NCBI RefSeq assembly: GCF_009882935.1
Contig: NZ_WTVA01000015.1
Location: 1 to 64,000, forward strand
DNA: 64,000 bases
DNA from: Sneathiella chungangensis
GTDB lineage: Bacteria; Pseudomonadota; Alphaproteobacteria; Sneathiellales; Sneathiellaceae
Direction of reading: 5' to 3'
Shown: piece by piece, positions 41,432 through 59,603 of the stretch
Layout of the letters: each line of letters starts with the position of its first letter
How positions within the stretch are numbered: position 1 is the first letter of the stretch
The notes under the pieces: generated by a model
Seen by the model: only the letters and a program-made list of their open reading frames with translations
Database searches by the model: none
Told to the model about the DNA's origin: nothing
Translations under genes and position numbers: made by a program

Positions 41432-43252
41432 TTATCCTAGGCTCTCCGCCAGATCTCCGGGAATTTTTACCGGAAGGGCAAGCAATTGCTGGGCGTAGGT
41501 CTTCGCCAGATTATCCAGATGCAATGTCGAGGTTCCCCCGCCGCCAAGGCAATCCGTCAGCAAGAAATTCACCGCATCCATGCCCGGAAGGTCAAATCGC
41601 ATCACCTCTCCTTCGACGACATGGCCGAAATATTTCTTCACCGCCTCTTCCGTCGCGCTTTGCTTTATCCAGGGCATATATTCCGGTTTCCGGGCAAGGA
41701 CACCGACATTGGCGTTATTGCCTTTATCGCCGCTTCGCGCCGCCGCAAGCTTGATCAGCGGCACTTCCGTCATCACGTCAGAGGTTGCGCTCGGTCGCGT
41801 GTCCGCGACCGCATGTCGCGGTTTCGGAAATTCTGAATAGCTCGCCGGAACCGGAATTTTAAATTTAACCGGTTTATTGTTTATATATATCTTTGGCTTA
41901 ATGCGCGCCTTATCGATCTGAAAGGCGAACTGCGCAACGACGGGCGTAATCTTCGGGCGGCCGGCGGCACCGGCGGAACAACGGCCGGTCGTCATGGAAA
42001 GACCGACGCCCGTTGTCTCTTTGGAGAAAAGCTCGAGCGCCGCCTTCTCGTCATGGCGGACGTCGATCTGCGTCACGATTTCACGTGACAGGGCCGCGTG
42101 TTCGTCCGCATTGTCACCCCAAAGCGTCTGCGCGCCGATGATATGCACGGCGGTATCGCGGTAATCGCCGAGGTTTCGCTCAGTGAATAGACGCCGCGTC
42201 CGTTTCAAAAGCGCATCCGCGAAGGCCTTGCCCTTGGCGACGGCATCGAAACCGGTAATCACGGTCGTTGCGGTCGCTCGAAATCCATCCTTGTAGGTAC
42301 CTGACACCTTGTAGGTGGCGGTCGGGGCGCGGCCTTTCACATTCGCAACCTCCAGCCAGTCCTTTTTCGTTTCCGTCAGGGTCACGTGCGAAAAATCGCA
42401 GATCACATCCGGCATGATATAGGCCGCCGGGTCACCGATCTCATAGAGTATTTGCTCACCAACCGAGAGGCGGGAGACAACGCCGCCGGTCCCCTGCGGT
42501 TTCGTGACGGCGAAAGTGCCATCGCTCCTGCAGACCGCAATCGGATAGCCCATATCATCCCAGCCACCGACGACGTCCTGCCAGTCCGTGAAATTTCCCC
42601 CGGTCGCCTGCGCGCCACATTCGAGAATATGACCGGCGAGCGAGCCGGCGGCTAGTTTGTCATAATCATCCACGGTCCAGCCAAATTCGTGGATCAGCGG
42701 CCCCAGGGTGACGGCACTGTCAACGCAGCGACCGGTGATTACCACATCAGCGCCATTATCGAGCGCTGCCGCTATGGGAAAGGCGCCGAGATAGGCATTG
42801 GCGCTAATCATCCCCTCCGGCATGGGCGCGCCCGAAAACATTTCCACCGTGCCGTCTTTGCGGAGATCTTCAATTTTATCCGCGAGATTATCGCCGTCCA
42901 CCGTGCCGATCTTGAGATCGATGCCCGCATCTTCCGCCACCCTGGCAAGTGCCGCCGCGCAGGCCGCCACATTGACACCGCCGGCATTGGCCACCACCTT
43001 GATGCCCCGCGACTTGATTTCATGCAAAAGCGGCTTCATCGCCAGATCGACGAAATCACGCGCATACCCCTGATCCGGAGATTTTTCCTTCGCCCTAACA
43101 AGGATCGACATGGTGACTTCGGCAAGATAGTCGAACACCAGATAGTCAAGATCACCTTTCATTACGAGCTGGCGCGGCGCTTCCTGCGAATCGCCCCAAT
43201 AACCTGATGCGCCACCGATACGGATTGCTTTTGAACCGGTCATGGCACTCAT
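41432..43252 (-). CDS. atuA: Acyclic terpene utilisation AtuA family protein (DUF1446)
   Basis: Member of the AtuA/DUF1446 family, needed for growth on citronellol or geraniol in pseudomonads; its reaction is unresolved. The 606-aa protein starts RIGGASGYWGDSQEAP, has VANAGGVNVAACAAAL and GRCVDSAVTLGPL, and a C-terminal domain with LARSGDKGNNANVGVLARKPEYM-like residues (ARSGDKGNNANVG). It is the marker gene of the cluster and overlaps the AtuE-like gene by four bases, which couples the two. Confidence 0.85.
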   Translation of the reverse strand: MSAMTGSKAIRIGGASGYWGDSQEAPRQLVMKGDLDYLVFDYLAEVTMSILVRAKEKSPDQGYARDFVDLAMKPLLHEIKSRGIKVVANAGGVNVAACAAALARVAEDAGIDLKIGTVDGDNLADKIEDLRKDGTVEMFSGAPMPEGMISANAYLGAFPIAAALDNGADVVITGRCVDSAVTLGPLIHEFGWTVDDYDKLAAGSLAGHILECGAQATGGNFTDWQDVVGGWDDMGYPIAVCRSDGTFAVTKPQGTGGVVSRLSVGEQILYEIGDPAAYIMPDVICDFSHVTLTETKKDWLEVANVKGRAPTATYKVSGTYKDGFRATATTVITGFDAVAKGKAFADALLKRTRRLFTERNLGDYRDTAVHIIGAQTLWGDNADEHAALSREIVTQIDVRHDEKAALELFSKETTGVGLSMTTGRCSAGAAGRPKITPVVAQFAFQIDKARIKPKIYINNKPVKFKIPVPASYSEFPKPRHAVADTRPSATSDVMTEVPLIKLAAARSGDKGNNANVGVLARKPEYMPWIKQSATEEAVKKYFGHVVEGEVMRFDLPGMDAVNFLLTDCLGGGGTSTLHLDNLAKTYAQQLLALPVKIPGDLAESLG

Positions 43253-44076
43253 CCCTTTGCTTCGCTGCCGGTCAGTTGCCAGGCAGGTTTGCGCTTTTCC
43301 GCAAAGGCGGACTGCCCTTCCTTGCCTTCATCACTCCGGTTGAGCTCCGAAAATTTTGCCGCGGAAAAACGGACCATTTCCTCTTCGGGAAGCGAGCCGA
43401 CTTTCAGCATGATGGCCTTGGTCGCCGCGTTCGCCTTGGGCCCGCACCGAAGCACCCGCGCCACCACATCTTCAAGTGTCGTATCGATATCCTCATCCGC
43501 GCATAAATACTGTGCGATCCCGTACTCAAAAGCTTTCGCGCCGTCGAACCGCTCACCGGTAAGCGCAAGCTGACGCGCGCGGGTCAGGCCAATGCGCTTT
43601 ACCACATAAGGTGCTATTTGCGCCGGGGCCACACCCAACGTTGTCTCCGGCATGCCCATGCGCGCGCCTTCCGCCACAATCGTGATATCTGCAAGGCAGG
43701 CATACCCCATGCCGCCACCAAATGCAGATCCTTCGACGACCGCAATCGTCGTTTGCGGCAGATGCTCGAATTTGAGAAAGGCCATACCGGCGGCCGCATT
43801 CCGTTCCATTATCGGATCACTATCTACCGTCACGATATCGTCGGCCATGTTGCGGCGTTCCTTGATATCCCCGCCGGCGCAGAAATGTCCGCCTGCGCCG
43901 CGAAGCACGACCACCCTCACCTCCGGCGTTGCCTCCAGCCAGTCGACGACCGCCGCGAACTCCGCCCCCATCTGGCTGTTGATGGCATTGCGCTGATCCG
44001 GCCGGTTGAAAATCAGGTTGAGGCGCGGTCCCGCCACCTCAAGCTTGAGAAATTCACATACAGGTAGTTCATGCAT
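43249..44076 (-). CDS. atuE: AtuE-like isohexenylglutaconyl-CoA hydratase
   Basis: An enoyl-CoA hydratase-fold protein. It has FNRPDQRNAIN, oxyanion-hole CAGGDIKERRN and GGGMGYACLAD, and the acid/base Glu144 in MPETTLGVAPAQIAPYVVKR; the other crotonase glutamate is a Gly here. The APAQIAP run and the region ANAATKAIM resemble Pseudomonas AtuE more than MCC-pathway hydratases, as I remember them. It would hydrate isohexenyl-glutaconyl-CoA. I chose MHELPV (44076); an upstream ATG at 44100 adds eight basic residues. Confidence 0.8.
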   Translation of the reverse strand: MHELPVCEFLKLEVAGPRLNLIFNRPDQRNAINSQMGAEFAAVVDWLEATPEVRVVVLRGAGGHFCAGGDIKERRNMADDIVTVDSDPIMERNAAAGMAFLKFEHLPQTTIAVVEGSAFGGGMGYACLADITIVAEGARMGMPETTLGVAPAQIAPYVVKRIGLTRARQLALTGERFDGAKAFEYGIAQYLCADEDIDTTLEDVVARVLRCGPKANAATKAIMLKVGSLPEEEMVRFSAAKFSELNRSDEGKEGQSAFAEKRKPAWQLTGSEAKG

Positions 44077-44110
44077 TTTCTTATTCTTTCTTTTTCGCAT
44101 TACCCGCCTT

Positions 44111-44799: not shown

Positions 44800-44821
44800 T
44801 AACATTCATGCATGAATGTTA
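44800..44821. promoter_or_regulatory. Perfect 22-bp palindrome: likely TetR operator
   Basis: The 20-bp core AACATTCATGCATGAATGTT (44801-44820) is flanked by T and A, giving a perfect 22-bp palindrome. It fills the 17-base spacer between TTGTAA (44797-44802) and TAGTAT (44820-44825), a candidate promoter of the plus-strand dehydrogenase gene. A repressor bound here would block RNA polymerase directly. Confidence 0.8.
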
Positions 44822-46145: not shown

Positions 46146-48997
<2,852 letters not shown>

Positions 48998-49022: not shown

Positions 49023-51026
49023 TTATTTTCCGTCGTCGTCCGCCGCTTCGATCTCAAAGAGAAGATCACCGACGGATACCTGGCTCGCCGCCGACGCAAT
49101 CACTTCCTGAACGACGCCCGCCACCTCGGCTAGGATATCATGCTGCATCTTCATCGCCTCCAGTACCGCCAGCCGCGTGCCTACCTCAACCGTGTCACCG
49201 ATTTTTACGAATACCTCCAGCAACGTGCCATGCATCGGCGCACTCACCTGCCCGCTTCCGGCCGCCGTTACCGCGGTCAGAGGAAAGGCAATTTCATTGA
49301 CGAACCGCAGCGTTTTGCCATCGTCCGTAATGTCCAGCACGCCGTCGGACGGGGCTTCGCAATGCAGGCGCTTGCGAGTGCCGTCGACGGTCAGTTGTGC
49401 GCGTGACTTGCTCCGTCCCATAACCTCGACAAAATGCGGTGTTTCCCCGACAACGACATCGTAGCCGCCTGTGCGCTTGGGCGACACCGTCACGTCCGTC
49501 CTGTTCTCATCGGCGCCGAAAACATAGCGTGTCAGCAAAGCCCCGCCGCTCGACCAATCCATCAGCTGATCGCTCGCGAATAGTGCTTCCGCCTTCGCAC
49601 GGTCCCGCTCTATCTGGTAAAATAATACGGCTGCCATCGCCATTTCGGCCTCCGTCGGTGTCTTCGCGGCAAGACGGTCCGCGTCGAAGAGATCGCCGAT
49701 GAAGGCTGTCGTCGCCTGCCCTTTCGCAAAGGTTTCCTCATTCAATATATCGATGAGGAACCCGCGATTTGTCGTCAGGCCGAAAAGAACCGTATTCTTA
49801 AGTGCCTCGATAAGGCGATGCCGGGCGACTTCCCTGTTCTCGCCGTATGCGATTACCTTGGCGATCATCGGGTCGTAAAAGGGAGAAATCTCCTGGCCCT
49901 CGTCAATGCCCGCGTCAAAGCGGATGCCGTCCCCTTCTTCGGGCTGCCAGATCGAAATTCTACCGGTGCAGGGAAGGAAATCCTGCGTCGTGTCTTCGGC
50001 ATAAAGACGGACTTCTATCGCATGTCCCTGAAGTTTCACTTCGGATTGCTCAAGATCGAGAGGCTCCCCTTGCGCAACCTGAATTTGCAGGGACACGAGA
50101 TCAAGCCCGGTGACGAGCTCTGTCACAGGATGCTCGACCTGAAGGCGGGTGTTCATCTCGAGAAAGTAGAAGTTGTTTTCCGCATCAAGCAGGAACTCGA
50201 CAGTACCCGCACCACGGTAATCAATGCTCCGCGCCGCTTCCACCGCGGCCGCGCCCATCTTTACGCGAAGTTCCGGCGTCATGACCGGACAGGGTGCTTC
50301 CTCGACCACTTTCTGGTGCCGTCTCTGGACGGAGCAATCACGCTCGCCCAAATGAATGACGTTGCCATGACTGTCAGCGAAAATCTGGATCTCAACGTGA
50401 CGTGGCTCGACAATCGCCTTTTCGAGAATAAGTTCGTCAGAGCCAAACGCGTTGAGGGCTTCCGACCGCGCGGAACCCAACGCACCGGCAAGTTTCTTTT
50501 CCTCATGAACGAGTCGCATGCCACGTCCGCCGCCGCCCGCAGCCGCCTTCACCATGATCGGAAATCCGATCTTCTTTGCGGCGGCTATCAAGGTCGCATC
50601 GGACTGATCCTTATCTTCATAGCCCGGGACGCAGGGCACGCCCGCCGCAATCATTCGCCGTTTTGCCGCCGCCTTGTTCCCCATCAGATCGATCGCCTCG
50701 GCGGTCGGGCCGATAAACACGATCCCGGCCGCTTCGCAGGCGCGCGCAAAGTCAGCGATTTCGGAGAGGAAGCCATAGCCCGGATGGATCGCCTCGGCAC
50801 CCGCTTCCCTGGCGGCGGCCAATATTTTCGCGCTGTCCAAATAGGATTGTTGCACCGGCGCAGGCCCGATCAGCACCGCCTCATCCGCCATCCGTACATG
50901 CAGCGCGGCGGCATCCGCCTCTGAATAAACGGCGATGGTCCGATAGCCGAGGCTTTTGGCCGTCTTCATCACCCTGACCGCTATTTCGCCCCTGTTGGCA
51001 ACCAGTATGCTGTTAAATTTTCTCAT
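49023..51026 (-). CDS. atuF: Biotin carboxylase/BCCP subunit of a geranyl-CoA-type carboxylase
   Basis: The alpha subunit of an acyl-CoA carboxylase; it charges biotin with bicarbonate using ATP. Biotin carboxylase domain first (FNSILVANRGEIAVRVMKTA, GGGGRGMRLV, FLEMNTRLQVEHPVTE), a middle domain, then a biotinyl domain with Lys626 in EAMKMQHD. Sequence alone does not separate geranyl-CoA from 3-methylcrotonyl-CoA carboxylase; AtuA, AtuD-like and AtuE-like neighbours favour the former. The beta subunit lies upstream in the same direction with 53 bases between. Confidence 0.88.
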   Translation of the reverse strand: MRKFNSILVANRGEIAVRVMKTAKSLGYRTIAVYSEADAAALHVRMADEAVLIGPAPVQQSYLDSAKILAAAREAGAEAIHPGYGFLSEIADFARACEAAGIVFIGPTAEAIDLMGNKAAAKRRMIAAGVPCVPGYEDKDQSDATLIAAAKKIGFPIMVKAAAGGGGRGMRLVHEEKKLAGALGSARSEALNAFGSDELILEKAIVEPRHVEIQIFADSHGNVIHLGERDCSVQRRHQKVVEEAPCPVMTPELRVKMGAAAVEAARSIDYRGAGTVEFLLDAENNFYFLEMNTRLQVEHPVTELVTGLDLVSLQIQVAQGEPLDLEQSEVKLQGHAIEVRLYAEDTTQDFLPCTGRISIWQPEEGDGIRFDAGIDEGQEISPFYDPMIAKVIAYGENREVARHRLIEALKNTVLFGLTTNRGFLIDILNEETFAKGQATTAFIGDLFDADRLAAKTPTEAEMAMAAVLFYQIERDRAKAEALFASDQLMDWSSGGALLTRYVFGADENRTDVTVSPKRTGGYDVVVGETPHFVEVMGRSKSRAQLTVDGTRKRLHCEAPSDGVLDITDDGKTLRFVNEIAFPLTAVTAAGSGQVSAPMHGTLLEVFVKIGDTVEVGTRLAVLEAMKMQHDILAEVAGVVQEVIASAASQVSVGDLLFEIEAADDDGK

Positions 51027-51079
51027 TTTTCCGGGCCTACCTGTTCTTTTTCATGGTTCTTTACGGAGTCTGCCCGAGA

Positions 51080-52702
51080 TTAAAGCCGGCCAACACCGAA
51101 GCTGTTGGGCTGCAGGGTTCTGTTGCGCGCCTCCCAGCAGGTCTGCAACGCAAAACCGATGACCTTCCGGCTGTCACGCGGATCGATGACACCTTGATCC
51201 AGAAGACGGCCCGATGTGTAGAAAGCGTCCGCCTGATTGTCGAAATGTTCGATTAGACGCTTTTTCTGCGCGGCCAACGCCTCTTCATCAACCGGAACAC
51301 CCTTTCGCTCCGCGCCGCTTCTGGCGACCTGATCCATGGTGAGCGCCGCTTGCTCGCCGCCCATCACGCCGGTCTTGGCATTTGGCCACGCGAACAGGAA
51401 GTCCGGCTCATACGCAAGGCCGGCCATACCGTAATTCCCGGCGCCGAAGCTCGCCCCAATATAAAGCGTTATTTTTGGCACGCGGACGTTGGAGACCGCC
51501 TGGATCATTTTCGATCCATGCTTGATCATTCCCTTATGCTCATATTCCTTGCCGACCATGTAGCCGGTGATGTTGTTGAGGAAGACAAGCGGTATATTCG
51601 CCTGATCGCAAAGCTGGAAAAACTGCCCGCCCTTGGCCGCGCCGTCGGGATCGATCGGGCCGTTATTGCCGACGATACCACAAGCCTGCCCGAAGATACT
51701 CGCCTGCAGGCAGACAAGGGTGGAGCCATAGCGCGGCTTGAATTCCTCGAAGTCCGATCCGTCGACAAGCCGGGCAACAACCTCGCGGACATCATAGGGT
51801 TTGCGGTAATCTACCGGAACGACGCCGGCTATTTCATCGGGATCATATAACGGCTCCGCGAAATTTTTAATCTCCGGCTTTGGGCATTTGTCATTCCAGC
51901 CGAGGCGGCCGATGATATCGCGGGCAATAAGTAGGCCATTTGCATCATCCTCGGCAAGATACTCGACAAGACCTGTCGTGGTCGCATGCATCTCCGAGCC
52001 TGCAAGTTCCTCATCATCGGAAATTTCCCCCGTCGCCGCCCGCACAAGCGCCGCGCCGCCAAGGGACGCCCGGCCACGCCCCTTGATACCGATCACATAA
52101 TCACTCATGCCCGGCAAGTACGCGCCGCCGGCCGTCGACGGACCATGCAAAACGACGAAGGTCGGGATACCGGCCGCGCTCAGCTTCGCGAGCCGCTGAA
52201 ATCCCCCGCCACCATGGGCCCAGGATTCCACCTGGTACTTCAGAAGGTTGGCGCCCGCGCTCTCCACCAGATGAACAAAGGGGAGTTTCTTGTCGATCGC
52301 GATATCCTGGCAGTTTCGAAGCTTCTCGCCCGATTTCTGGGTCATGGCACCGGCATTGATGCCGCTGTCGCTGACGCAGATCATACAGCGGACACCTTTG
52401 ATAAAACCGATTCCGGCAAGCGAACTCGCGCCGGGTATGCTTTTCTCGCGGTCATTTGTATCAACGCAGTAATTGGCAAGGCCGAACAGTTCCAGAAACG
52501 GCATCCCCGGATCGAGCAGCCGCACCAATCTCTCGCGCGGCGTGAGTTGTCCGCGCTCCTCAAACCGGTCGCGCCGGCGCTCGGACAATTGCTTTGCCCG
52601 GTCCTTTAACGCATGAAGCTCGTCAACAAGCGCCAGCATTTCCTGGCGGTTGGTTGCAAAACTGTCGGAGGAGGTGACGATTTTGGAAGTGAAAACGGCC
52701 AT
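51080..52702 (-). CDS. atuC: Carboxyltransferase (beta) subunit of a geranyl-CoA-type carboxylase
   Basis: Transfers CO2 from carboxybiotin to the gamma-carbon of an unsaturated acyl-CoA. The 540-aa protein contains the carboxyltransferase motifs SGARLL-like VESAGANLLKYQV, GPSTAGGAYLPGMSDY, NNITGYMVG and GASFGAGNYGMAG. It starts MAVFTSKIV at 52702 and is divergent from the synthase-like fusion gene. It pairs with the biotin subunit downstream. As for that subunit, substrate is inferred from context. Confidence 0.88.
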   Translation of the reverse strand: MAVFTSKIVTSSDSFATNRQEMLALVDELHALKDRAKQLSERRRDRFEERGQLTPRERLVRLLDPGMPFLELFGLANYCVDTNDREKSIPGASSLAGIGFIKGVRCMICVSDSGINAGAMTQKSGEKLRNCQDIAIDKKLPFVHLVESAGANLLKYQVESWAHGGGGFQRLAKLSAAGIPTFVVLHGPSTAGGAYLPGMSDYVIGIKGRGRASLGGAALVRAATGEISDDEELAGSEMHATTTGLVEYLAEDDANGLLIARDIIGRLGWNDKCPKPEIKNFAEPLYDPDEIAGVVPVDYRKPYDVREVVARLVDGSDFEEFKPRYGSTLVCLQASIFGQACGIVGNNGPIDPDGAAKGGQFFQLCDQANIPLVFLNNITGYMVGKEYEHKGMIKHGSKMIQAVSNVRVPKITLYIGASFGAGNYGMAGLAYEPDFLFAWPNAKTGVMGGEQAALTMDQVARSGAERKGVPVDEEALAAQKKRLIEHFDNQADAFYTSGRLLDQGVIDPRDSRKVIGFALQTCWEARNRTLQPNSFGVGRL

Positions 52703-52927: not shown

Positions 52928-54397
52928 ATGGAAGTAGGAATATTGGCCTACGGGGGATATATCCCGCAAAGCCGATTGCAACGCAGCGAAATCGCCAAAG
53001 CACATGCATGGTTCAACCCCGGATTGAAGGGGCTGGCCAAAGGCGAGCGCGCGATGGCGAACTGGGATGAAGACAGCGTAACCATGGCAGTGGAGGCCGC
53101 GCGGGACTGTCTTGCCGACTCTGATCGTGATCAGGTTTCCGCCGTCTATATGGCGTCAACAACCTTTCCGTTCACGGACCGTCAGAATGCAGGGATCGTC
53201 GCCGATGCCCTCAATCTGAAAAGCAGTCTTCAGACGCTCGATTTCGCATCGTCGCAGCGGGCCGGGACCGCGTCTCTTTCCGTCGCCCTGCAGGTTGCCA
53301 AGGGAGGCAGTGGACCCATCCTCTTCACGGCGGCAGAAAAACGCAAAACCCGTGCAGCAAGCCCGCTTGAAATGACATCAGGCGATGGCGCCGCGGCCTT
53401 TCTGGTCGGACAGGGCAAAGTCATCGCCCGTCTTCTCGGATCGCATACAGAAGCCGTCGATTTCGTCGATCATTTCCGCGGCGAAAACGAAGACTTCGAT
53501 TACAGTTGGGAAGAACGCTGGATCCGTGATGAAGGCTATCTCAAGATCGTTCCGGCGGCCATTTCCGCGCTTCTTAATGAAACAGGCGTGAAGCCGGAAG
53601 ACATTACGACTTTCTGCTTTCCGGTCGCGGCCCGCGGGGTCGCGGGGGCGATTGCCAAGAAAATCGGTCTTCCTGAAAGTGCGGTCGCGGACAATCTTCA
53701 GGAAAATTGCGGCGAAACGGGGACCGCGCATTCAGTGGTCATGCTGGCGCTGGCGCTTCAGAACAGCAAGCCAGGCGACAAAATTCTCGTCGCGAGCTTT
53801 GGTCAGGGCAGCGATGCGCTCCTGTTCGAAGTGACAGAGGAGATAAAAACTCTCTCGCCGCGCAGAGGCGTTTCCGGCTATCTCGCCCGTCGTTATCCGG
53901 AAACCAACTACAGCAAGTTTCTTGCCTTCCACGACCTCGTCAATCTGGAGCGGGGCATTCGGGCGGAAACGGACAAGAAAACCGGCCTGACGACGCTCTA
54001 TCGGAACAAGGGGATGGCGCAGGCAATGGTGGGCGGCAAATGCTCCCAATGCGGGACCGCTCAGTTTCCGAAATCCAATATGTGCGTCAATGAAAACTGC
54101 GGCGCGATCGGCACACAGGAAGATTATCCCTTCGCGGAGCGTATTTCCAAGGTGAATTCCTTTACCGCCGACCGGCTGACCTACTCTCCGGACCCACCCG
54201 CCTATTACGGCATGATTCAGTTCGAGGAGGGCGGCCGCCTGATGAGCGATTTCACGGACATTTCACCGGAAACCGACATCAAGGTGGGAATGCCCATGCG
54301 GATGATGTTCCGGATCAAGGATTATGACAACAAGCGCGGGTTCAGGCGCTATTTCTGGAAAGCGGCCCCGGCAGGCGCTTCAAACAAAGGAGAATAA
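52928..54397 (+). CDS. HMG-CoA synthase-like protein fused to DUF35, lacking the catalytic triad
   Basis: Residues 1-345 follow the thiolase fold of archaeal-type HMG-CoA synthase, but the usual triad is changed: Glu becomes Thr (about 78-79, MASTTFP), Cys becomes Gln110 (SSQRAGTA) and His becomes Cys230 (TFCFPVAA). The C-terminal part (about 365-480) is a DUF35 domain: a zinc ribbon (Cys372, 375, 386, 391) and an OB-fold. Archaea keep synthase, DUF35 and thiolase as a complex; here two are fused and the thiolase gene follows after two bases. It cannot be assumed to make HMG-CoA. Ribosome site AGGAG precedes ATG 52928. Confidence 0.75.
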   Translation: MEVGILAYGGYIPQSRLQRSEIAKAHAWFNPGLKGLAKGERAMANWDEDSVTMAVEAARDCLADSDRDQVSAVYMASTTFPFTDRQNAGIVADALNLKSSLQTLDFASSQRAGTASLSVALQVAKGGSGPILFTAAEKRKTRAASPLEMTSGDGAAAFLVGQGKVIARLLGSHTEAVDFVDHFRGENEDFDYSWEERWIRDEGYLKIVPAAISALLNETGVKPEDITTFCFPVAARGVAGAIAKKIGLPESAVADNLQENCGETGTAHSVVMLALALQNSKPGDKILVASFGQGSDALLFEVTEEIKTLSPRRGVSGYLARRYPETNYSKFLAFHDLVNLERGIRAETDKKTGLTTLYRNKGMAQAMVGGKCSQCGTAQFPKSNMCVNENCGAIGTQEDYPFAERISKVNSFTADRLTYSPDPPAYYGMIQFEEGGRLMSDFTDISPETDIKVGMPMRMMFRIKDYDNKRGFRRYFWKAAPAGASNKGE

Positions 54398-54399
54398 CG

Positions 54400-55605
54400 A
54401 TGGCCTCAGGAATTAAAGACAAGGTTGCCATACTGGGCATGGGCTGCTCGCGTTTTGGCGAACGCTGGAACGACAATGCCGAAGATCTGATGATCGAGGC
54501 CTATGTCGAAGCCCTCGCGGATGCCGGTATCGAGAAAAGCCAGATCGAAGCCGCCTGGCTCGCGACGGCCATTGAAGAAGAACATGTGGGGAAATCCGCG
54601 GTTCCGCTTTCGATGGCCCTGCGCCTTCCCAATATACCGGTCACACGCGTGGAAAACTACTGCGCCAGCGGGTCGGAAGCCTTCCGCGGCGCCGTCTATG
54701 CCGTCGCGTCGGGTGCCTGCGATATTGCCCTGGCTCTCGGCGTCGAAAAGCTGAAAGACACAGGATATGGCGGCCTGCCGCAGCGCAACCGCGGCTCCGT
54801 CAATGATCTTTTCTGGGCAAATGCCTCTGCCCCGGGTTCCTTTGCGCAGCTCGCCTCCGCCTATTCGGCGAAGCACGGGGTCAGCAAGGAAGATATGAAA
54901 CGGGCGATGGCCCATATCTCCGTCAAGAGCCATGACAACGGATCGAGAAACCCGAAGGCGCATCTTCGCAACAAGATCAACGAAGACAGGGTCATGAACG
55001 CGCCGATGATTGCGGAACCGCTCGGGCTGTTTGACTGCTGCGGAGTGAGCGACGGGTCTGCCTGTGCGATTGTCACGACGCCGGAGATCGCCCGGTCCCT
55101 CGGCAAGACGGACCTTATTACCGTGAAGGCGTTGCAGCTTTCCGCCTCAAACGGCACGGAATCGCAGCACAATTCCTGGGACGGCAGCTATTTCGTCACC
55201 ACGCGGGCAGCCGCCAACCGCGCCTATAAGGAAGCGGGCATCACCAAGCCGCGCGACCAGATCAGCATGTTCGAGGTTCATGACTGCTTCTCCATCACCG
55301 AACTCGTGACTATGGAGGATCTGTACATTTCCGATGAAGGCAAGGCGGTAAAGGATGTCATGGACGGTTTCTATGACGCGGACGGCAAGGTGCCGTGCCA
55401 GATTGACGGCGGCCTCAAATGCTTCGGCCATCCGATCGGCGCATCGGGTCTTCGCATGATCTATGAAATGTATCTGCAGATGCAGGGCCGCGCGGGCGAG
55501 CGTCAGCGCAGTGAGGAGCCGGTTTTCGGGATGACCCACAATCTCGGCGGCTTCCCGCACCAGAACGTCTGTTCGATCACTATTGTTGGAAAAGAAGGCG
55601 CATAA
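54400..55605 (+). CDS. Thiolase (acetyl-CoA acetyltransferase / SCP2-type)
   Basis: A 401-aa thiolase-superfamily enzyme with the nucleophile Cys88 (NYCASGSEAF), the His of FEVHDCFSITEL and the C-terminal CFGHPIGASG. Thus, unlike its partner, its active site is complete. It most resembles the SCP2/archaeal-type thiolases that need a DUF35 protein. It starts two bases after the fusion gene, so the pair is translated together. Likely cleaves a beta-ketoacyl-CoA or works with its partner on a branched one. Confidence 0.88.
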   Translation: MASGIKDKVAILGMGCSRFGERWNDNAEDLMIEAYVEALADAGIEKSQIEAAWLATAIEEEHVGKSAVPLSMALRLPNIPVTRVENYCASGSEAFRGAVYAVASGACDIALALGVEKLKDTGYGGLPQRNRGSVNDLFWANASAPGSFAQLASAYSAKHGVSKEDMKRAMAHISVKSHDNGSRNPKAHLRNKINEDRVMNAPMIAEPLGLFDCCGVSDGSACAIVTTPEIARSLGKTDLITVKALQLSASNGTESQHNSWDGSYFVTTRAAANRAYKEAGITKPRDQISMFEVHDCFSITELVTMEDLYISDEGKAVKDVMDGFYDADGKVPCQIDGGLKCFGHPIGASGLRMIYEMYLQMQGRAGERQRSEEPVFGMTHNLGGFPHQNVCSITIVGKEGA

Positions 55606-55620
55606 TTCTTTTCCTTGACC

Positions 55621-55656
55621 TCTTCAGGCTGCCTCCACTCCCGGGCAGCCTGAAGA
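55621..55656. terminator. Convergent terminator between thiolase and acyl-CoA ligase
   Basis: A perfect 13-bp stem, TCTTCAGGCTGCC (55621-55633) with 55644-55656, around a 10-base loop. AT-rich flanks on both sides allow it to work in either direction. Confidence 0.85.
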
Positions 55657-55671
55657 ATATTTAAAGAGTGC

Positions 55672-57213
55672 TCAAGCGGATTTGCGAAGATCCCCGATCT
55701 CTTCTTTCAGAACCCTCTTCAAAACCTTCCCCGTCGCGTTCCGCGGCAGTTCCGTTTTAAACACCACATGTTTCGGGATCTTGTAACGCGCAAGCTTGTC
55801 CTGACAGAAGAGGATTACGTCGTCTGCGGCCAGCGTCTGATCCGGCGCCACGACAACCACGGCGCAACCGACTTCGTCCCATCGATCATCCGGCACACCG
55901 ATAATGGCAACATCGGCGATCTCCGGCATCTTGAACAGCACGCTTTCAATTTCCGCGGGATAGACGTTTTCTCCGCCGGAGATATACATGTCCTTCCAGC
56001 GATCGACGACATAGTAATTCCCCTCCTCGTCGACCCGGCAGGCATCGCCGGTATGCAGCCAGCCATCAGTTATCGTCGTGGCGTTCGCGTCCGGCCGGTT
56101 CCAGTAGCCGGGAGTAATGTTCGGTCCCTTTACCCAGAGTTCTCCGGTTTTTCCTTGCGGGACGTCATTGCCGTTTTCATCGACAATGCGCGCTTCAGCA
56201 TTCATGGCGAGTTTGCCGGCGGAGCCAGGCTTGCCGAACGCCATCGCCGCATCCTGAACCGTCACCGTCGGGCTCGTCTCCGTCATGCCGTAGCCTTGCT
56301 GCAACGCCAGGCCGCGCGACTTGTAGATTTCCAGAAGCGGCACCGGCGTCGGGGCCCCGCCAACACCGGCGCAGACAAGACGCGATAACTCCGTTGTCTT
56401 GAAATCGGGATGCTGGCTCATGAAGAGATAGTTTGCCGGCACGCCGAAGAAATGGGTCAGGCCGACCTCCGGGTCATTGATCAGCCGAAGGCATTCGCCG
56501 GGATCGAAAGCACGCATGACCAGTGTCGTTCCGCCAAAATAAAGTGCAACCGAGCTGTAGCAGTTGAGCCCGCCCGTATGGAACAGCGGCAGAATGGTGA
56601 GCGTCTTGGCATTCGGGGTAAAATAGGTCGGCACGCCCAGATTAACGGCGTTGTAAAACGCCATGCCATAGGTGTTCATCGCACCCTTGGGCAGGCCCGT
56701 CGTTCCCGAGGTATACATGATGGTCCAGACATCGTCATGGGTGACGGTGGCGAGAACGGGAGACGGGCTCGCGGCGGCAATCGCCGCTTCATAGGGCGTA
56801 TTTCCGCCGCCGCCCGTGGTCTCCAACGTATAAGGTACACCGGTCTTTTCTTTTAGCTCTTTTATTTCGGTCGCAAATTGCCTGTCATGGATCAGAACGT
56901 CCGGCGCCGCGTCCCGGATGATGAAATCGAGCTCACTGACCGTCAGACGCCAGTTGAGAGGAAGGAATATCGCGCCTATCTTGGCACAAGCCGCCTGGAT
57001 TTCCAGCATATCCGTGGAATTCATGGCAAGGACACCGATCCGGTCGCCCTTCTCTACCCCGCAATTCCTCTGGAAATGTACCGCGAGGCGCAGGGCCCGG
57101 TCATTCGCCTCCCGGTAGGTGAAATGCCGGTTCGAATGCAGGTCTACCCAGACGTCCTTATCCGGTATTCTTTCGGCATGATGGGCCAGCCAGTCATAAT
57201 GCGTTACGCTCAT
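55672..57213 (-). CDS. AMP-forming acyl-CoA synthetase
   Basis: Activates a carboxylic acid to its CoA thioester. The ANL signature is TIMYTSGTTGLPKGAMNT near residue 165-182, with the later GYGMTETSPTV, GELWVKGPNITPGYW and the C-terminal Lys motif PRNATGKVLKRVL. It may play the role AtuH plays in pseudomonads. It converges with the thiolase gene and is followed upstream on the same strand by a second dehydrogenase, separated by about 40 bases in a likely operon. Confidence 0.88.
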   Translation of the reverse strand: MSVTHYDWLAHHAERIPDKDVWVDLHSNRHFTYREANDRALRLAVHFQRNCGVEKGDRIGVLAMNSTDMLEIQAACAKIGAIFLPLNWRLTVSELDFIIRDAAPDVLIHDRQFATEIKELKEKTGVPYTLETTGGGGNTPYEAAIAAASPSPVLATVTHDDVWTIMYTSGTTGLPKGAMNTYGMAFYNAVNLGVPTYFTPNAKTLTILPLFHTGGLNCYSSVALYFGGTTLVMRAFDPGECLRLINDPEVGLTHFFGVPANYLFMSQHPDFKTTELSRLVCAGVGGAPTPVPLLEIYKSRGLALQQGYGMTETSPTVTVQDAAMAFGKPGSAGKLAMNAEARIVDENGNDVPQGKTGELWVKGPNITPGYWNRPDANATTITDGWLHTGDACRVDEEGNYYVVDRWKDMYISGGENVYPAEIESVLFKMPEIADVAIIGVPDDRWDEVGCAVVVVAPDQTLAADDVILFCQDKLARYKIPKHVVFKTELPRNATGKVLKRVLKEEIGDLRKSA

Positions 57214-59526: not shown

Positions 59527-59603
59527 TGGCGATCCCGACAGGACTCGAACCTGTTACCTCAAGATTAGGAATCTTGCGCTCTATCCTGATGAGCTACGGG
59601 ACC
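59527..59603 (-). tRNA. tRNA-Arg (anticodon CCT)
   Basis: The minus-strand sequence folds as a tRNA: acceptor GGTCCCG / CGGGATC with one G-U pair, D-arm AGCTC...GAGC, anticodon arm CAAGA-TTCCTAA-TCTTG, T-arm with GGTTCGAGTCC. The loop places CCT as anticodon, decoding AGG. The discriminator G is followed by an encoded CCA (59529-59527). No integrated element is seen next to it. Confidence 0.95.

Follow-up and report, generated by a model that had tools for sequence, protein, structure and literature searches.

The 64,000-nucleotide stretch of Sneathiella chungangensis DNA analysed here (the window; positions 1 to 64,000 of contig NZ_WTVA01000015.1, assembly GCF_009882935.1) carries two adjacent forward-strand genes that are predicted to encode an active thiolase and an inactive, structural partner. 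The first is a complete gene (52928-54397, stop codon included) whose 489-amino-acid product, defined by the list of open reading frames (ORFs) and by an AlphaFold2 model, is a fusion of two domains. Its N-terminal part (amino acids 1-340; 52928-53947) resembles 3-hydroxy-3-methylglutaryl-coenzyme A (CoA) synthase (HMGCS), and its C-terminal part (amino acids 354-481; 53987-54370) is a DUF35 domain comprising an oligonucleotide/oligosaccharide-binding (OB) fold and a zinc ribbon with cysteines at positions 372, 375, 386 and 391 (54041-54100). Only two bases separate the called fusion stop codon from the ATG of the second gene (54400-55605), which encodes a thiolase of 401 amino acids that far exceeds the cut-off of the PRK06157 family model NF004810 (702.4 bits versus 403). 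Its catalytic residues Cys88 (54661-54663), His294-Asp-Cys296 (55279-55287) and His344 (55429-55431) lie in the expected loops (C88, H294DCF, GH344P and NLGG), which align with the same loops of the archaeal thiolase chain 6esq_A (194.5 bits).

A sequence search matches amino acids 2-332 of the fusion to the archaeal HMGCS chain 6esq_I (E 1.3e-28), and the same part of the protein also matches PhlA (5m3k_A and 9skh_A) and the MucABC subunit 9vbo_A over approximately 310-335 residues. With phmmer, the C-terminus is matched to the DUF35 chains 6esq_E (amino acids 365-481) and 5m3k_B (amino acids 357-464), and the Pfam models ACP_syn_III_C, zf-ChsH2 (PF12172) and OB_ChsH2_C (PF01796) all exceed their cut-offs. 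The fusion nevertheless scores below every NCBIfam cut-off for HMGCS (150.5 bits for TIGR00748, cut-off 353; 201.7 bits for NF003274, cut-off 244), and we found no curated full-length family whose cut-off it passes. Modelling by AlphaFold2 with 51 homologues yielded a confident structure (predicted local distance difference test 90.8, predicted template modelling score 0.92), in which a low-confidence linker (amino acids 345-351) precedes the DUF35 domain. When this model was compared with known structures using Foldseek and VIA-align, the best superposition was obtained with 6esq_I (Z 46.4, 1.8 Å, 334 residues), in keeping with a KAS III/HMGCS fold, followed by CsATase PhlA (9skh_A, Z 45.2), Pseudomonas protegens PhlA (Z 44) and the MucABC subunit 9vbo_A (Z 42). 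These structural lists are filled by the larger domain, and the DUF35 assignment therefore comes from the sequence matches.

The alignment to 6esq_I places Thr78 (53159-53161), Gln110 (53255-53257) and Cys230 (53615-53617) of the fusion at the positions of Glu82, Cys114 and the histidine of the FHQP motif, respectively (archaeal residue numbers Glu82 and Cys114 are from PMC6392133). With a superposition that extends over 334 residues at such a Z score, a shifted alignment of the triad is improbable. Among 102 fusion homologues, none carries an intact Glu-Cys-His triad. Position 78 is Thr in all of them, position 110 is occupied by Gln (80), Leu (15), Met (6) or Arg (1), and position 230 by Cys (55), Ile (28), Val (15), Ala (2) or Leu (2). 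The same picture emerges from a wider set of 51 homologues, where three of the most divergent members carry Arg at position 110 and still have a thiolase partner. Because positions 110 and 230 vary, no conserved substitute for the lost residues stands there, and we regard the HMGCS-like site as almost certainly without catalytic activity. In the thiolase, Cys88 and the HDCF, GHP and NLGG motifs show little or no variation among 68 homologues. These results bear out much of an initial annotation of the locus, which had described the triad replacements, the fused C-terminal DUF35 domain and the thiolase with its full active site two bases on, and had proposed a kinship with the archaeal thiolase-DUF35-HMGCS complex that both the sequence matches and the superposition support.

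Loss of the triad does not reflect recent decay of the gene. Between Sneathiella genomes, the ratio of nonsynonymous to synonymous substitution rates is 0.016-0.12 for all three parts of the pair in those comparisons where the synonymous rate can be computed (several are saturated), and this excludes a recently decaying pseudogene; the thiolase evolves somewhat more slowly than the HMGCS-like domain. One Sneathiella genome has a fusion gene interrupted by a frame change or stop, which is either a sequencing error or a pseudogene. Upstream of the fusion, little of the sequence is conserved beyond short stretches close to the start.

The pair is widespread and strongly conserved, and its members currently bear the names ‘OB-fold domain-containing protein’ and ‘acetyl-CoA acetyltransferase’. 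Named genomes contain at least 561 relatives, of which 80 loci were retained, mostly from Alpha-, Beta- and Gammaproteobacteria with single metagenome-assembled genomes from other phyla. Matches with E < 1e-100 occur in 51 of 289 alphaproteobacterial genomes, including genomes of 1.4 Mb. A thiolase partner is present in 73 of the 80 loci, usually directly downstream of the fusion, and six of the seven remaining loci are contig ends just past the fusion gene; all three modules are thus encoded together in nearly all loci. The zinc-ribbon cysteines are partly or wholly gone in several fusion homologues (six loci), which retain the OB part and the thiolase partner. An intact archaeal-type HMGCS of the same phylum was considered as the parent of the fusion and rejected, since none of 299 sampled Pseudomonadota genomes encodes one above the TIGR00748 cut-off.

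Two kinds of characterized assemblies offer a guide to the function of such a pair. The archaeal thiolase/DUF35/HMGCS complex (6esq, 6et9) has the identical three modules, the same C, HDCF, GH and GG thiolase loops, and the HMGCS subunit that is the closest structural match. It differs in retaining the HMGCS triad, in having a separate DUF35 subunit, and in serving the mevalonate pathway, whereas the pair described here sits in catabolic clusters. The PhlABC and MucABC acyltransferases (5m3k, 9skh, 9vbo) resemble the fusion in having an HMGCS-like subunit without the catalytic Cys and Glu. Structures and mutagenesis have placed PhlABC catalysis in PhlC alone, with PhlA, which lacks these key residues, and PhlB thought necessary for assembly (PMC6392133), and the C88S change in PhlC abolishes CsATase activity (PMC12955522). 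Therefore, a dead HMGCS partner beside an active thiolase has a precedent. More distant parallels are the benzoylsuccinyl-CoA thiolase BbsAB and the Ltp2/Sal-DUF35 aldolases, in which a thiolase-fold enzyme that acts on bulky acyl-CoAs is held by DUF35. These enzymes have no HMGCS-like part, and the aldolases have repurposed or changed the thiolase catalytic residues that are kept in the present thiolase. Other Alphaproteobacteria carry an unfused set composed of a thiolase (34% identical), an HMGCS-like protein and a separate DUF35 protein (L125:3587-6186 and L126:3702-6306) within a conserved operon of beta-oxidation-like character, and inspection by eye indicates that the L125 HMGCS-like protein also lacks a Cys at the catalytic position.

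Genes surrounding homologous pairs, called with the help of codon-position GC content, suggest a part in the catabolism of ring-shaped and terpene-like acids. In other Sneathiella species the pair lies beside genes for MarR, aliB, badH and badI, one Sneathiella BadI exceeding the TIGR03210 cut-off; badI of the present genome is on a different contig from the pair. Of the 19 sampled genomes that contain both the fusion and badI, 7, representing four alphaproteobacterial families, have them 1.5-4 kb apart. Of 51 genomes with the pair, 36 also encode AtuA and 15 do not. Genome size and relatedness confound the co-occurrence statistics for both BadI and AtuA, which serve as leads only. Contexts with badH, badI, aliB or mrcDEFGH-like neighbours represent cyclohexanecarboxyl-CoA or monoterpene-ring genes, and other neighbours encode MaoC-type hydratases, short-chain dehydrogenases/reductases, CitE-like lyases and acyl-CoA dehydrogenases. 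Azoarcus sp. KH32C carries the pair on plasmid pAZKH, where a MarR gene is followed by the fusion (47% identical), the thiolase (69%) and an acetyl-CoA hydrolase/transferase gene, and the pair is about 6 kb from mrcDEFGH-type genes and near a set encoding MaoC, a CoA-ester lyase and an acyl-CoA dehydrogenase. A few small genomes have an apparent Rieske oxygenase gene among the neighbours; in one of them, a streamlined genome of 1.4 Mb (L127:7942-11649), a gene that by eye resembles one for a Rieske-type oxygenase is located close to the pair.

A similar order occurs in the monoterpene island of Castellaniella defragrans 65Phen, which comprises genes for MarR (CDM25296), CDM25297, a hypothetical protein (CDM25298), an acetyl-CoA acetyltransferase (CDM25299), a CoA transferase (CDM25300) and two electron-transfer flavoprotein genes (PMC4109377). 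Cells grown on alpha-phellandrene were the only ones to yield peptides of CDM25298 and CDM25299, and insertion mutants of mrcF and mrcC do not grow on limonene (PMC4109377). The island shares the series MarR, hypothetical protein, thiolase and CoA transferase with pAZKH and differs by the additional gene CDM25297 after MarR. From this gene order, which was the only basis for comparison, we infer that CDM25298 is the fusion.

Considered together, these observations favour the view that the pair forms a beta-ketothiolase complex that acts on alicyclic, terpenoid or branched acyl-CoAs, with the thiolase as its sole catalytic subunit and the HMGCS-like/DUF35 protein in a structural role, an explanation that we hold to be reasonably likely as a whole. 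Its components carry different weights. An active thiolase that operates in a complex with the fusion is very probable, a role in beta-oxidation is probable, and for alicyclic and terpenoid substrates in particular the chances are about even. Physical association, reaction direction and substrates are what we infer from sequence comparison and gene context. The literature that we surveyed contains no assigned reaction or assay for the pair and no functional test of the PRK06157 family, of which the thiolase is a clear member and which is known by annotation as ‘acetyl-CoA acetyltransferase’.

In the proposed mechanism, the two gene products would assemble in the manner of the archaeal complex, except that one chain supplies both the HMGCS-like and the DUF35 part. 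Cys88 of the thiolase would attack a 3-oxoacyl-CoA with the assistance of His344 and the His-Asp-Cys loop, acetyl-CoA or its branched equivalent would leave, and the shortened acyl group would be passed to CoA. The HMGCS-like pseudo-enzyme would keep the assembly together and shape the CoA/acyl pocket, and the DUF35 domain would clamp it to the thiolase. The usual substrates might be 3-oxoacyl-CoAs derived from the beta-oxidation of alicyclic acids and of terpenoid acids, the latter branched and often dicarboxylic. For the genes in the window, a candidate is the 3-oxoacyl-CoA that would remain after Atu-type carboxylase, hydratase and lyase steps. If this is correct, the breakdown of alicyclic and terpenoid acids can be assigned a thiolase, the ‘hypothetical protein’ seen only in phellandrene-grown Castellaniella is accounted for, and inactivation of the HMGCS partner would be a common event in thiolase complexes beyond the antibiotic acyltransferases.

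Three points weigh against this interpretation. Genomes of 1.4 Mb and loci beside apparent Rieske-type oxygenase genes also harbour the pair, with neither badI nor AtuA present, so that the range of substrates must either be broad or have been misjudged. The link to the phellandrene proteome depends on the synteny described above. Finally, the strong family-specific conservation of the HMGCS-like domain (e.g. Y192, E195, E196 and R200) could exceed what scaffolding demands.

This last point is the basis for the best-surviving alternative, in which the HMGCS-like pocket has been rebuilt as a second functional site that binds or acts upon a carboxylate or branched acyl-CoA, making the complex bifunctional. 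Near-invariant residues specific to the family include R139, the D191-Y192-x-W194-E195-E196-R197-W198-x-R200 segment and H268, and alignments reveal that most of these residues differ in archaeal HMGCS and PhlA. However, the old triad positions offer no conserved nucleophile or general base, PhlA provides a precedent for a purely structural role, and the near-invariant residues, known from alignments, may be required for subunit interfaces or folding. We consider a second site unlikely. If it does exist, it might, for example, hold ring-derived acyl-CoAs by their branched chain or distal carboxylate, and the chemistry or channel of the resulting two-site enzyme would be one not previously described.

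The resemblance to PhlABC and MucABC could be read as a shared reaction, such that the pair would be a CoA-independent acyltransferase catalysing C- or N-acylation rather than a thiolase. The three shared modules, the dead HMGCS-like subunit and the Z scores of 42-45 to PhlA and the MucABC subunit agree with this proposal. However, the known acyltransferases are encoded by three separate genes and are biosynthetic, with PhlABC operating independently of CoA, whereas the thiolase that accompanies the fusion scores 204 bits against 7yvy and 194 against 6esq_A, both CoA thiolases, but only 66 against its homologue PhlC and 52 against the thiolase-type subunit of MucABC. This proximity to CoA thiolases argues against CoA-independent acyl transfer, and the pair is located in beta-oxidation clusters rather than in those for antibiotic biosynthesis, rendering this function improbable.

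The gene neighbourhood in the window invites another explanation, which the initial annotation had put forward: a complex that cleaves a C-C bond of 3-hydroxy-3-isohexenylglutaryl-CoA (HIHG-CoA), or channels this compound, and takes the place of a missing lyase. A terpenoid-type cluster includes, on the reverse strand, an AtuA family gene (41432-43252; PF07287 and AtuA_ferredoxin) about 10 kb from the pair, an enoyl-CoA hydratase gene in an AtuE-like position (43249-44100) that matches the gamma-carboxygeranoyl-CoA hydratase model PRK05674 below its cut-off, and AtuF/AtuC-like genes for a biotin-dependent acyl-CoA carboxylase (49023-52702; alpha 49023-51026, beta 51080-52702) that diverge from the fusion gene. 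A gene for a flavoprotein resembling old yellow enzyme or 2,4-dienoyl-CoA reductase (46146-48275) lies on the same strand. The Atu-like surroundings (AtuA, carboxylase and AtuE-like hydratase) are common to about ten Sneathiella genomes, and this synteny, together with the AtuA co-occurrence noted above, speaks for an HIHG-CoA function.

However, no lyase is missing. Another contig of the same genome encodes a LiuE-type HMG-CoA lyase (443 bits for PRK05692, cut-off 246), whose gene adjoins that of a biotin-dependent carboxylase subunit. LiuE is the reported HIHG-CoA lyase of Pseudomonas (PMC4097962), and another paper assigns the cleavage step to AtuA (PMC4847356). Since both proteins are encoded, there is no gap for the pair to fill. 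Moreover, the HMGCS site is dead, the active-site residues that are present belong to a thiolase, Atu clusters account for only a minority of the homologous pairs, and AtuA is missing from 15 of the 51 genomes in which the pair occurs. A specific tie to HIHG-CoA is thus quite improbable. The catabolic setting that had been proposed for the pair is upheld by the gene contexts; with regard to substrate, cleavage of a 3-hydroxy-3-alkylglutaryl-CoA, which is lyase chemistry at odds with the thiolase residues, is disfavoured, and the beta-keto intermediate proposed beside it is favoured. The further suggestion that Gln110 makes the HMGCS-like domain a KSQ-type, malonyl-type decarboxylase that supplies a carbanion to the thiolase draws on the 80 of 102 homologues with Gln at the Cys position, but it fails because this residue is Leu, Met or Arg in the other 22, including Arg in divergent, thiolase-paired members of the wider set, and His is never present, making such an activity extremely unlikely.

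Several other features of the window and genome were recorded. A perfect 20-bp palindrome (AACATTCATGCATGAATGTT; 44801-44820) between a TetR gene and a divergent acyl-CoA dehydrogenase gene is likely to be a TetR operator. No other copy with up to three mismatches occurs in the window and none is at the fusion promoter, and a shared operator linking the pair to the Atu cluster was rejected because the palindrome is confined to this intergenic gap. Downstream of the thiolase, an AMP-forming acyl-CoA ligase gene (55672-57213) lies on the opposite strand. An inverted repeat noticed by eye at about 55624-55656 is missing from the scan list, and we do not claim a terminator after the thiolase. A tRNA-Arg gene (anticodon CCT; 59527-59603, reverse strand) is located just downstream of an enoyl-CoA hydratase gene. 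Elsewhere in the genome there are three more DUF35 genes, each of which resides beside a gene for a distant thiolase-type protein (26-29% identical).

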